Positions 34,058-37,658 of a DNA stretch of 49,919 bases are shown one piece after another. A program made the translations under genes and the position numbers. The notes under the pieces are model-generated. The model was given only the letters and a program-made list of their open reading frames with translations. It did no database searches and had not been told where the DNA came from. Numbering within the stretch: the stretch's first letter is position 1; each line of letters starts with the position of its first letter. Origin of the DNA: Solirubrobacteraceae bacterium (GTDB lineage Bacteria; Actinomycetota; Thermoleophilia; Solirubrobacterales; Solirubrobacteraceae); contig JANWLE010000094.1 of assembly GCA_025451035.1 (NCBI GenBank), positions 1 through 49,919 on the forward strand, in the 5' to 3' direction.

Positions 34058-35212
34058 GTGAACTTCGACCTCTCCCCCGACCACGAGCTGATCCGCCGCA
34101 CCGTGCGGGAGTTCGCGCAGGGCGAGGTCGCGCCGCAGGCGGAGGAGCTCGACCGCACCAAGTCCTTCCCTTATGAGATCGTGGCCAAGCTCGGCTCGCT
34201 CGGCCTGATGGGGATCCCCTTCCCGCTCCAGTACGGCGGCAGCGGCGGCGACACGCTCGCGTACGTGCTGGCCGTGGAGGAGCTCACGCGAGTCGACTCC
34301 TCTGTCGCGATCACGCTGTGCGCGCATACCTCGCTCGGCACCCAGCCGATCTACCTGTTCGGCAGCGAGGAGCAGAAGCAGCAGTGGCTGCCGCAGCTGT
34401 GCTCCGGTGAGCGCCTCGGCGCGTTCGGGCTGACCGAGCCCGAGGCGGGGTCCGACGCCGCCAACACCCGCACGCGCGCGCAGCTCGTCGACGGCGAGTG
34501 GGTGATCAACGGCGCCAAGCAGTTCATCACCAACGCGGGGACCGACATCTCCGCGATGGTGTGCATCACCGCGGTGACCGGCGAGGAGTCCGATCCCGCC
34601 CGCCCCAGGGAGATCTCGAACATCATCGTGCCGAACGGAACACCCGGGTATGAGCCCGGTCAGCCGTACCGCAAGATGGGCTGGAACGCGTCGGACACCC
34701 GGCCGCTCACCTTCAGCGACTGCCGGGTGGCGCAACAGAACCTGCTCGGTCAGCGCGGCGTCGGCTTCAAGCAGTTCCTGCGGGTACTCGACATCGGCCG
34801 CATCGGCGTGGCCGCGATGGGAGTCGGGCTCGCCCAGGGAGCGCTGGACCAGGCGCTCGCCTACGCCAAGGAGCGCCGCGCCTTCGGCAAGCCGATCTCC
34901 AAGTTTCAGGCGATCCAGGGCAAGCTGGCCGACATGTCGAGCGAGATCGAGGCGGCGAGACTGCTCGTCTACAAGGCGGCGCGCGAGAAGGACTCAGGAC
35001 GCGACTTCTCGCTGACGGCGGCCCAGGCGAAGCTCAAGACGGGCCGTCTGGCGGTGCGCTGCGCCGAGGAGGCCGTACAGATCCACGGCGGCTACGGCTT
35101 CATCGAGGAGTACCCCGTCTGCCGCTTCTACCGCGACGCGAAGATCCTCACGATCGGCGAGGGCACCGACGAGATGCAGCAGATGGTGATCGCGCGCGCC
35201 CTCGGGGCCTGA
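34058..35212 (+). CDS. Acyl-CoA dehydrogenase
   Basis: A 384-aa FAD flavoprotein that desaturates acyl-CoA and passes electrons to ETF. The sequence begins NFDLSPDHELIRRTVREFAQ. FGLTEPEAGSDAANTRTRAQ binds FAD/substrate. The catalytic base is E368 in IGEGTDEMQQMVIARAL, the position used by short/medium-chain enzymes. VQIHGGYGFIEEYPVCRFYR is the C-terminal signature. The start must be the GTG at 34058, because the ATG just upstream runs into TGA after three codons. Chain-length specificity cannot be told. Confidence 0.94.
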   Translation: MNFDLSPDHELIRRTVREFAQGEVAPQAEELDRTKSFPYEIVAKLGSLGLMGIPFPLQYGGSGGDTLAYVLAVEELTRVDSSVAITLCAHTSLGTQPIYLFGSEEQKQQWLPQLCSGERLGAFGLTEPEAGSDAANTRTRAQLVDGEWVINGAKQFITNAGTDISAMVCITAVTGEESDPARPREISNIIVPNGTPGYEPGQPYRKMGWNASDTRPLTFSDCRVAQQNLLGQRGVGFKQFLRVLDIGRIGVAAMGVGLAQGALDQALAYAKERRAFGKPISKFQAIQGKLADMSSEIEAARLLVYKAAREKDSGRDFSLTAAQAKLKTGRLAVRCAEEAVQIHGGYGFIEEYPVCRFYRDAKILTIGEGTDEMQQMVIARALGA

Positions 35213-35225
35213 TCCACGGGCATCC

Positions 35226-35242
35226 GAGCGTCCGGGACGCTC
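35226..35242. terminator. Hairpin between convergent acyl-CoA dehydrogenase and F420-type reductase genes
   Basis: GAGCGTC-CGG-GACGCTC is a perfect 7-bp stem located 13 bp after the acyl-CoA dehydrogenase stop. It touches the stop codon of the convergent gene. There is no U-tract on either side, so it may be a bidirectional 3'-end hairpin and not a strong intrinsic terminator. Confidence 0.4.
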
Positions 35243-35693
35243 AGCGCGGTTCGAGGACCATCAGCGGGATCTTGCGCTCCGTGCGCCGCCGATACGCTTC
35301 GTAGCCGCCGTACACGTCCACCGCCAGCCCCCACAGCCGGTCGTACTCCTCGGGCGTCGCCTCGCGCGCATGCACCGGCATCAACTTCGAGCCGATCTGG
35401 ATCGTCGTGTCGGGGTTGGCCTTGAGGTTGTGGTACCAGGCCGGGTTCTTCTGATAGCCGCCCTTGGAGGCGATCAGGATCGTGTTCTCGCCGTCACGCG
35501 CGAACACCAGCGGCGTCGTGCGACTTACGCCGCTCTTGGCGCCAACGTGGTCGAGCAGGCACATCTCCGGCAGGCCGGGGATGTGTTGGCCGATCACGCC
35601 GCGCGACGCGCGGTAGACCTTCGCGTGGGCACCCATCAGGCGGGTCAGAAGGCCCCAGTTGCGGTCGGCCCAGCGCAGGTAGTCGACGGCCAT
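35241..35693 (-). CDS. F420/deazaflavin-dependent nitroreductase-family protein (DDN-like)
   Basis: A 150-aa split-barrel protein. The family pattern is visible: GLPEMCLLDHVGAKSGVSRT, TPLVFARDGENTILIASKGG, YQKNPAWYHNLKANPDTTIQ, and EYDRLWGLAVDVYGGYEAYR. Members bind coenzyme F420 and reduce quinones, fatty acids or nitroaromatics, as Ddn does in M. tuberculosis; the physiological substrate here is unknown. The ATG at 35693 has TACAGT 10 nt upstream; the extension to 35897 reads through the operator repeats and is spurious. It diverges from the hydroxylase gene with which it shares the operator region. Confidence 0.85.
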   Translation of the reverse strand: MAVDYLRWADRNWGLLTRLMGAHAKVYRASRGVIGQHIPGLPEMCLLDHVGAKSGVSRTTPLVFARDGENTILIASKGGYQKNPAWYHNLKANPDTTIQIGSKLMPVHAREATPEEYDRLWGLAVDVYGGYEAYRRRTERKIPLMVLEPR

Positions 35694-35703
35694 CGCGGCT
35701 TGC

Positions 35704-35709
35704 ACTGTA
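35704..35709 (-). promoter_or_regulatory. -10 box of the F420-type reductase gene
   Basis: TACAGT on the minus strand lies 10 nt upstream of the ATG at 35693 and 22 bp from the edge of the operator unit. Confidence 0.45.
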
Positions 35710-35731
35710 CCGGCAACCGAGCGCGAGCAGA

Positions 35732-35826
35732 TTACGCGAGCTTGCGTAACGCAAATTTGCGTAAGATTCATGACGCAAAAGCAGTGTGTCTCGTTACGCA
35801 TAGTTGCGTAACGCAATCTTGCGTAA
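35732..35826. promoter_or_regulatory. Duplicated palindromic operator in a divergent promoter region
   Basis: Two copies of a 33-bp unit, 35732-35764 and 35794-35826, are offset by 62 bp. Each unit reads TTACGC-N4-TTGCGTAACGCAA-N2-TTGCGTAA and differs only in the N positions (GAGC/ATAG and AT/TC). The 13-mer TTGCGTAACGCAA is an inverted repeat around one central base. Octamer TTGCGTAA occurs at 35742, 35757, 35804 and 35819. A further half-site (GACGCAAA) lies between the units, and unit 2 continues as CGCA. Unit 1 ends 38 bp from the minus-strand start codon and unit 2 ends 37 bp from the plus-strand start. AT-rich relative to surroundings. The cognate regulator is not apparent in the window. 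Confidence 0.8.
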
Positions 35827-35849
35827 CGCAGCTTCCCCGGCCGCTGGGC

Positions 35850-35855
35850 TAGCAT
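35850..35855 (+). promoter_or_regulatory. -10 box of the hydroxylase gene (leaderless type)
   Basis: TAGCAT lies 8 nt upstream of the ATG at 35864, just downstream of operator unit 2. Confidence 0.5.
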
Positions 35856-35863
35856 CGACGGGG

Positions 35864-36643
35864 ATGGCAGACACGGTGAGAAGCAGCGCGACCGCAACAG
35901 GCGATGCTCGCCCGGACGCCGAAGGGCTCACTCCGGACCTCGACGCCCCGCACCTGACCGCGCCGGCCGGGGCGGTGCCCACGCGAGACCAGAGGCGGGC
36001 CGTCACGCTCGCCGACTGCGCGCGCACCTTCGCGCGCCAGCCCTCGCCCCCGTATTTGCTTGGCGCGGTCGCGGTGGCGCTCGCGCTGCGCGTCCCCCAG
36101 GGCGGGTGGAGCTGGCGCGACCTGGTGATGGCCGGCGGGCTCATCGGCGTCACGCCGTTCGTCGAGTGGGCGATCCACGTGTACCTGCTGCACTCGCGGC
36201 CGTTCACGCTGCTCGGCCGGCGCGTGGAGCTGCTGACCGCGCGTGAGCACCGCGCGCACCACCGCGCGCCGGGGGTGCTCGAGGGCGTGTTGATCCCCGT
36301 CTCCGGGGTGCTCGTGTTCCTCGCGATGATCGCCGCCACCAACTGGGCGCTGTCGTTCCCGATCGCGGCGGTCCTCTCCGGCCCGCGCCTGGCGTACGCC
36401 ACCACCGGTGTGGCAGTGAGCTTCGCGATCCTCGCCTCCTACGAGTGGATCCACTTTCTGATCCACACCCCCTACCGGCCCAAGCGCCGCTACTACAAGG
36501 CGATCTGGCGAAATCACCGGCTGCACCACTACAAGAACGAGCGCTACTGGTTCGGCGTCACCTCCACCGTCGGCGACCGCCTGATCGGCACCTCGCCCGA
36601 CCAGCACGAGATCCCCCGCTCCGCCACCGCCCGCACGCTCTAG
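35864..36643 (+). CDS. Fatty acid hydroxylase / sterol desaturase family membrane protein
   Basis: A 259-aa diiron membrane oxygenase. After about 60 hydrophilic residues come four helices (GVLVFLAMIAATNWALSFPI, ATTGVAVSFAILASYEWIHF). The histidine clusters are HVYLLH, REHRAHHRAP, HFLIH and NHRLHHYKNERYWFGVTS, the pattern of the FA_hydroxylase superfamily, which includes carotenoid hydroxylases, sterol C4/C5 oxidases and fatty-acid hydroxylases. The exact substrate is unknown. It shares the duplicated operator with the F420-type reductase, so both may act on the same lipid or respond to the same signal. Confidence 0.8.
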   Translation: MADTVRSSATATGDARPDAEGLTPDLDAPHLTAPAGAVPTRDQRRAVTLADCARTFARQPSPPYLLGAVAVALALRVPQGGWSWRDLVMAGGLIGVTPFVEWAIHVYLLHSRPFTLLGRRVELLTAREHRAHHRAPGVLEGVLIPVSGVLVFLAMIAATNWALSFPIAAVLSGPRLAYATTGVAVSFAILASYEWIHFLIHTPYRPKRRYYKAIWRNHRLHHYKNERYWFGVTSTVGDRLIGTSPDQHEIPRSATARTL

Positions 36644-36665
36644 CTGACGCGAGCGCTCGCCCGCG

Positions 36666-37658
36666 CTAGCCCCCGCTTCGTTCGAGCAGCGCGCTGGCCG
36701 CGCTCGCCGGGTCAAGGCGCCGCTCGATGACCTCCTGCAAGAGGCGCTTGAACTGGGCGTCCTCGCGCAGCTCCTCCTCCAGGCGCCTGCGCATCCGGGC
36801 GCTTGCGATCGCGAGCACCTCGTTGCGCAGGTTGCGCCCGCGACGCTCCTGCAGGGTGCCCTCGGCGGCGATGTGCGCACGGTGCTCCCCTAGCCGCTCG
36901 ACGAGCTCGTCGATCCCCTCGCCGCGCGCCGCCTCGGTCTTGACGATCGGCACCCGCCAGCGCGGGCGGGCGGGGCCCGAGCTGGCCTCGTCGAGATTCG
37001 CCAGCGACAAGACGCCGCGTATCTCGCGCACCATCGTGTCGGTCAGGGGGTGCTGCGCCTTGTTGATCACGATCACGTCGGGGATCTCCATCACGCCGGC
37101 CTTGAGCGCCTGGATCGAGTCGCCTGAGCCCGGCATCAGCACCAGCACGATCGTGTCAGCGTGGTCGATGATGTCTATCTCCGCCTGGCCGACGCCGACG
37201 GTCTCGATGAAGATGTCCTGCCGGCCGGCGGCGTCCAGCAAGAGCGCCGCCTGCAGCGCGGCCTCGGACAGCCCGCCGAGCGCACCGCGGTTGGCCATCG
37301 AGCGGATGAACACCCCCTGGTCCAGGAAGTGCTCGGTCAGGCGGATGCGGTCTCCCAGCAGCGCCCCTTGCGTGAACGGCGAGGACGGGTCGATCGACAG
37401 CACGCCGACGGTCCGCCCAGCCGCCCGCCGCGCCTTCGTGAGCGCGCCGATCAGCGTCGACTTGCCGACCCCGGGCGGCCCGGTGAAACCGAACACGGCG
37501 GCCCGCCCGGTATGGGGATAGACCTCGCGCACCAAGTCCCACCCCTCGGGGCGGTCGTCCTCGACCAGCGAGATCGCGCGCGCCAGCGCGCGCCGGTCGC
37601 CGTTGAGCAGCCGCCGCGCGAGGCTGCTCGTGCCTTCGTTGGTGTTCGCCTGAGGCAT
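36666..37658 (-). CDS. meaB: Methylmalonyl-CoA mutase-associated GTPase MeaB
   Basis: A 330-aa G3E-family P-loop GTPase that gates cofactor loading and protects B12-dependent acyl-CoA mutases. GFTGPPGVGKSTLIGALTKA is the P-loop (about residues 57-76). SIDPSSPFTQGALLGDRIRL, FIETVGVGQAEIDI and NKAQHPLTD (the base-recognition NKxD site in modified form, NKAQ) follow. The length is normal. The mutase small subunit is encoded at 30.0-30.4 kb; the large subunit is not in the window. GATAAT 8 nt upstream of the ATG suggests a leaderless transcript. Confidence 0.94.
   Translation of the reverse strand: MPQANTNEGTSSLARRLLNGDRRALARAISLVEDDRPEGWDLVREVYPHTGRAAVFGFTGPPGVGKSTLIGALTKARRAAGRTVGVLSIDPSSPFTQGALLGDRIRLTEHFLDQGVFIRSMANRGALGGLSEAALQAALLLDAAGRQDIFIETVGVGQAEIDIIDHADTIVLVLMPGSGDSIQALKAGVMEIPDVIVINKAQHPLTDTMVREIRGVLSLANLDEASSGPARPRWRVPIVKTEAARGEGIDELVERLGEHRAHIAAEGTLQERRGRNLRNEVLAIASARMRRRLEEELREDAQFKRLLQEVIERRLDPASAASALLERSGG

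Follow-up and report, generated by a model that had tools for sequence, protein, structure and literature searches.

Palindromic 15-bp-period repeats between divergent reductase and hydroxylase genes of a Solirubrobacteraceae bacterium: a probable orphan pair of ATPase-linked arrays

The DNA analysed here, a stretch of 49,919 nucleotides from a Solirubrobacteraceae bacterium (assembly GCA_025451035.1, contig JANWLE010000094.1; hereafter the window), carries a divergent gene pair of the F420H(2)-dependent quinone reductase and fatty acid hydroxylase families, with a palindromic array in the 170-bp gap between them (Table 1). Beyond the reductase lies a presumed acyl-CoA dehydrogenase-like gene, which is used below as a syntenic anchor. 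As had been noticed in a preliminary description of this DNA, the array consists of two 33-bp units (35732-35764 and 35794-35826) placed 62 bp apart, which differ at unit positions 7-10 and 24-25 alone. The distances of 38 bp to the reductase and 37 bp to the hydroxylase given there are also reproduced, with start codons that are the analyst's choice (ATG 35693 and ATG 35864, respectively).

Table 1. Features in and around the array, in window coordinates
Feature	Position	Strand	Remarks
Acyl-CoA dehydrogenase-like gene (presumed)	34070..35212	+	Syntenic anchor; the G002 element and the degenerate G003 array lie directly after the corresponding gene
F420H(2)-dependent quinone reductase family gene (PF04075)	35241..35693	-	Pfam; left neighbour of the array
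Palindromic unit 1	35732..35764	.	Repeats ACGCGAGCTTGCGTA (35734-35748) and ACGCAAATTTGCGTA (35749-35763); 1 mismatch to the class-wide array pattern
Isolated half-site ACGCAA in the spacer separating the units	35773..35778	.	Half-site at 35773-35777
Candidate ATPase remnant GCAGTGTGTCTCG	35781..35793	.	Weak similarity, noted post hoc, to the codons that end the ATPase ORF of G002 just ahead of its right array (shuffle p about 0.005); the reverse orientation scores nearly as high
Palindromic unit 2	35794..35831	.	Repeats ACGCATAGTTGCGTA (35796-35810) and ACGCAATCTTGCGTA (35811-35825), then an incomplete third half-site, ACGCAG (35826-35831); agrees with the class-wide pattern without mismatch
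Fatty acid hydroxylase family gene (PF04116)	35864..36643	+	Pfam; right neighbour of the array

The natural repeat in the window is a palindrome with a period of 15 bp, which starts at 35734, 35749, 35796 and 35811 and has a partial third copy at 35826. With up to two mismatches, the 13-mer TTGCGTAACGCAA yields six matches in the whole window (three places, both strands), all at the array, while 0.26 are expected. The gap holds nine half-sites (TGCGT/ACGCA), against a mean of 0.97 and a maximum of four in 2000 shuffles. The lag-15 self-match of the array (22/30) was equalled by none of 1000 shuffles, and the sole lag beating it, 62 (24/30), is the unit-to-unit distance. Judged from its sequence, such a non-random palindromic array would be of a type read by DNA-binding proteins, and to that extent the protein-binding site proposed earlier stands; the regulon suggested to couple the two flanking genes does not. 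A chance minisatellite, or a fragment coding for pentapeptide repeats, has also been considered, since a 15-bp period corresponds to five codons and LRNANLRK (unit 1) and LRNAILRNA (unit 2) can each be read in one frame, in the manner of LRNAxLRNA. The coding reading is rejected because the units fall in different frames, their distance of 62 bp not being divisible by 3, and because of the palindromic form of the repeats; in addition, a stop stands just before unit 2 in that frame, and relatives have such repeats upstream of ATPase genes. An origin of this kind is hardly credible.

TetR-type operators are short palindromes in tandem between divergent genes, and the array, being palindromic, intergenic and set between divergent genes, looks much the same. 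It had accordingly been proposed as the operator of an undescribed regulon governed by a TetR-, MarR- or GntR-type regulator. However, no TetR gene is linked to it, and none of the four surrounding ORFs compared with Pfam (reductase, hydroxylase, MeaB and hexapeptide transferase) is a regulator. A scan of the own genome (2.87 Mb) revealed no additional operator copies ahead of other genes: allowing one mismatch, the 13-mer matches twice outside the locus, once in what reads as coding (C69:135613) and once 77 bases from a contig end (C91:77), and the 18-bp palindrome with up to three mismatches occurs at two other places, per strand equal to its reversed control. The orthologous promoter is also without the array in two relatives, G002, where the gap of the divergent pair is short, and G008, where 27 bp separate the aligned ends; these are the only relatives in which the divergent pair was seen besides the window. 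A multi-gene regulon operator is contradicted by own-genome sites that do not exceed chance together with the absence of the array at the same pair in two relatives, and since arrays elsewhere adjoin ATPase genes, the TetR/MarR/GntR proposal is largely refuted and very improbable.

The surroundings of the pair vary within the genus. The acyl-CoA dehydrogenase anchor was found at 1e-120 in 16 of the 24 genomes of the genus, and in three (G004, G013 and G015) the reductase and hydroxylase genes stand in a different order. The stretch from acyl-CoA dehydrogenase to MeaB (34070-37658 in the window, and the syntenic loci L106-L121) is a shuffling spot, with reductase and hydroxylase reordered or missing.

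Outside the own genome, the array leads to a family of ATPases. With up to three mismatches, the 33-mer matches 2 of the 201 genomes of the order, the own genome and G002, which belongs to the same genus. The class-wide pattern ACGCANNNNTGCGTNACGCANNNNTGCGT, allowed two mismatches, matches 14 of 399 genomes, and its reversed control none. The four non-window loci with at most one mismatch (G002, G250, G353 and G178) all adjoin a homolog of an ATPase of about 380 aa, as located by tblastn, and the ATPases beside the last three arrays are 62-65% identical to the G002 protein. An ATPase homolog of 52% identity is present in G317 as well, where the pattern (two mismatches) overlaps its aligned start. 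In the other eight of the 13 further matching genomes, the flanks examined, about 1.5 kb, contain no ATPase; they are G003 and seven whose matches, all with two mismatches, are read as coding or chance (G133, G151, G163, G195, G199, G274 and G360). Exact matches to a 23-bp pattern were obtained at three loci in genome_contigs, all from Bacteroidales, and each time an ATPase gene starts just downstream of the array; the Bacteroidales ATPases are distant relatives of that of G002, at about 26% identity (tblastn). The palindromic motif is seen on two viral contigs, too (L048:8381-8403 and L049:2019-2041), in phage-like regions with no ATPase among the ORFs listed.

In G002, an array-ATPase-array element, with an ATPase gene of 381 aa, lies between the acyl-CoA dehydrogenase and reductase genes, one intergenic gap from the site of the window array. 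A window-like array stands at the 3' end of the ATPase and a second, weaker one (two mismatches to the pattern) upstream of its start; G353 likewise has the matching array at the ATPase 3' end and a weaker one visible upstream. In G003, the junction that is occupied by the element in G002 bears a degenerate array, with no ATPase by tblastn, and then an apparent 3' stub of the reductase, although tblastn detects no reductase there. Arrays without an ATPase thus occur in G000 and, in degenerate form, G003. The own genome, a 94% complete assembly, contains no ATPase homolog at 1e-10 and none with profile A2 at 0.01, a profile that does detect members in other genomes. Because tblastn finds no ATPase around the window array (locus L093) nor in the own genome, this array is called an orphan. 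The window units share the palindromic period of 15 bp (ACGCAnnnnTGCGTn) of the ATPase-linked array family, with 0 and 1 mismatches. Within the gap, unit 2 gives the best local match to the right-hand array of the G002 element, its nearest counterpart, and the spacer ATAG agrees as well. Next to it lies the candidate ATPase remnant (Table 1); for the left inner edge of the window array, the comparison with the G002 ATPase gave p 0.12.

Within the class, a homolog of the ATPase at 1e-10 is present in 65 of 299 genomes, and a full-length one at 45% identity or more in 24 of those. Pfam matches of the G002 protein (AAA_16, ATPase_2 and others) are all sub-threshold, that to ATPase_2 scoring 27.3 against a cutoff of 33.2 (E 3.8e-6), while a Bacteroidales protein (L046) exceeds the cutoff for ATPase_2 (46.8 against 33.2) and for AAA_14. 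Residues 298-356 of the latter match LexA_DNA_bind weakly, below the cutoff, and its structural model has helices at 303-314, 324-329 and 336-347 and strands at 351-354 and 357-360 in this C-terminal block (pLDDT 64-85), within a model that is poor as a whole (mean pLDDT 51, two sequences). By this tentative prediction, the ATPases of about 380 aa probably carry a C-terminal winged helix. Among solved structures, the profile of the Bacteroidales ATPases matches the archaeal AAA+ ATPase 2FNA, which we take to be SSO1545, over profile positions 12-366 (E 1.3e-10), and partially another, 2QEN (E 3e-8); the profile of the window-class ATPases matches none at 0.01.

Archaeal Orc1/Cdc6 initiators are encoded next to origin boxes, and plasmid Rep proteins have iterons. 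The ATPase loci are alike in that the gene of an ATPase or initiator with a winged helix, putative in the present family, is preceded by a repeat array, but they differ from these systems in that the arrays vary among members and no replicon is seen. Another likeness is with IniR, a mycobacterial ATPase regulator whose ATPase domain was modelled on SSO1545 and which binds and induces a promoter (PMC5760070). IniR is an ATPase-domain protein acting on promoter DNA, yet it differs in size (818 aa), in domains (a MalT-like and an SdiA-like DNA-binding domain) and in target (the iniBAC promoter) (PMC5760070). Membership in a defence system is rejected, as PADLOC gives partial matches of L046 to candidate defence families (best E 4.9e-6) and none of the G002 protein at 0.01, and the NCBIfam matches of L046 are all far below cutoff. 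A viral origin is rejected likewise: viral_contigs contains one relative of the ATPase with profile A1 and none with A2, to which two phage-record matches are added. ATPase homologs were observed on several plasmids, with L131 and L133 as plasmid records of Bacteroides sp. CACC 737, and some of them match only in two or three pieces. One plasmid homolog lies beside a site-specific integrase, and another beside genes annotated as ATP-binding and DUF4143.

The 15-bp period recurs upstream of many of these ATPase genes. In 40 discovery loci, the upstream lag-15 score averaged 16.7, and any other lag from 8 to 30 reached at most 13.5. Of the 25 close members (L051-L074 and L094), 15 had lag 15 at the top or tied for it, including L071, whose best window lies in possibly coding sequence, and 12 had a shuffle p of ≤0.01; for the G002 ATPase gene itself, the upstream lag-15 p was only 0.06. 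None of six distant class members had lag 15 as top or significant, and five of nine Bacteroidales loci had it as top and five as significant, three being near-copies. Sixteen further relatives were compared, with L129 left out as invalid, because its start lay outside the locus and almost all of the locus had been counted as upstream, and the upstreams of L131 and L134 nearly identical; in the 15 valid rows, lag 15 was top in two and significant in one, and periods of 14 and 22 bp appeared in some. This last result rejects a universal 15-bp period, and 15-bp arrays are a habit of the close ATPase family. Other spacings were observed as well: in L128, the palindrome GTGCTTTCAAAAGCAC occurs three times, every 22 bp, directly before the ATPase start, and the upstreams of three distant class homologs (L076, L077 and L079) peak at a period of 23 bp instead of 15.

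The array sequences themselves vary among members, from TTGCGAnTCGCAA to GGTATAAT-like and GGTATGCA-like forms. In the 399 genomes, TTGCGAnTCGCAA with up to one mismatch occurs at three ATPase starts only, a count that shows just that there are no other close copies, as the pattern was drawn from three members and the three genomes are not independent of it. The more identical the recognition helices, the more similar the arrays (Mantel r 0.36, p 0.0014), a correlation that persists once the ATPase domain is allowed for (partial r 0.23, p 0.015); there is a correlation with the ATPase domain as well (r 0.33, p 0.015). It is the 14 residues of this helix alone that keep a partial correlation: given the ATPase domain, none is left between the array and the winged helix as a whole (r -0.009, p 0.53), and a whole-winged-helix correlation is rejected. 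These six tests are uncorrected, and their permutations leave shared ancestry in. They cover 17 of the 25 close members, those with an array score of at least 15, L071 (score 18) being excluded by hand as possibly coding; some of the 17 automatically chosen arrays (e.g. that of L057) resemble coding sequence, which adds noise.

Given such palindromes, the array might also be a small non-autonomous mobile repeat of the REP or MITE kind, which lands near ATPase genes and elsewhere. Within each 33-bp unit, 26 of the 33 positions are self-complementary, the 108-nt array stretch taken as single-stranded DNA folds better than all of 200 shuffles, with unit 1 pairing with unit 2, and the ATPase-free arrays named above would be accounted for. 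Nevertheless, the own genome and each array-bearing relative in the 399-genome scan have one array locus rather than many dispersed copies, and array sequences vary between family members, in part along with the ATPase helix. With so few copies, a reading by hairpins alone is rejected, and a mobile repeat of this kind is an improbable source of the window array.

Comparisons between loci bear on whether array and gene move together. In one pair (L097/L098), DNA identity of 81% extends from within 3 bp of the outer edge of the array to the stop codon, with no match beyond. None of six other pairs has the whole array as its homology edge. Essentially the gene alone is common to L052/L053, L051/L094 and L057/L062, the first two with short extra matches; L056/L058 share the gene and weak short matches, L052/L054 the gene and a flanking stretch, and L067/L068 a much longer context beyond the cassette. 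No transposition machinery was identified in the ORF listing of the 12-kb G002 region.

What has been observed is the arrays themselves, their link with an ATPase family, an own genome with no detectable ATPase or regulon, and an array-free gene pair in two relatives. From these we infer a sequence of events, in which the window units would be paired ATPase-type arrays orphaned by the loss of an ATPase cassette, and this is probably, though by no means surely, what they are. In related genomes, such an array lies directly upstream of the start of an ATPase of about 380 aa (ATPase_2/AAA type), and in some members also at its 3' end. As the most likely mechanism, the ATPase would dock by its winged helix on the palindromes of its own promoter, every 15 bp, and in this way control its own expression, and array and gene would be able to travel as a cassette, settling in intergenic gaps. 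A cassette of this sort probably once lay between the reductase and hydroxylase genes in the window's genome, and deletion of the ATPase gene would have left the two end arrays. Several observations count against it. The window array lies on the opposite side of the reductase from the G002 element, which calls for one further event, be it a local hop, a second insertion or a gene swap. Moreover, the own assembly is 94% complete, the viral copies of the motif are without an ATPase, and eight matching genomes have none in the flanks.

The main rival to the orphan-array reading is that the site is still used for the reductase and hydroxylase genes, the array having been kept or taken over as a live local operator, recognised either in trans by an ATPase whose gene is plasmid-borne or lies in unassembled sequence, or by an unrelated regulator. 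The units have identical arms, differ at six spacer positions and lie near both starts, as selection for binding would leave them. Equal arms and changed spacers are, however, also expected if selection ended when the ATPase was lost, and no ATPase was found in the own genome, nor does the pair have an array in G002 and G008. Continued use of the site is accordingly considered unlikely.

For the ATPase family as a whole, a broader proposal can be put forward, possible but decidedly tentative. The loci may represent a widespread class of single-gene cassettes free of transposase, each composed of a winged-helix ATPase and a private, fast-evolving, iteron-like palindrome array that covaries with the recognition helix; such cassettes would hop between intergenic gaps and leave behind solo arrays like that of the window, and the array may be both operator and site of copying or insertion. 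In the literature searched, by title and abstract, no description of such arrays beside these ATPases was found, and the 13-mer appears to be absent from it. For the annotation of promoters, the window serves as a caution that a palindromic pair between divergent genes is not necessarily an operator for those genes. Genes for such ATP-binding proteins are often annotated as hypothetical or merely as 'ATP-binding protein', and a private palindromic promoter array, together with a recognition helix that apparently tracks it, offers a direct test of the binding target of these ATPases. Arrays that stand without the gene, in turn, may mark the former sites of such ATPase genes.
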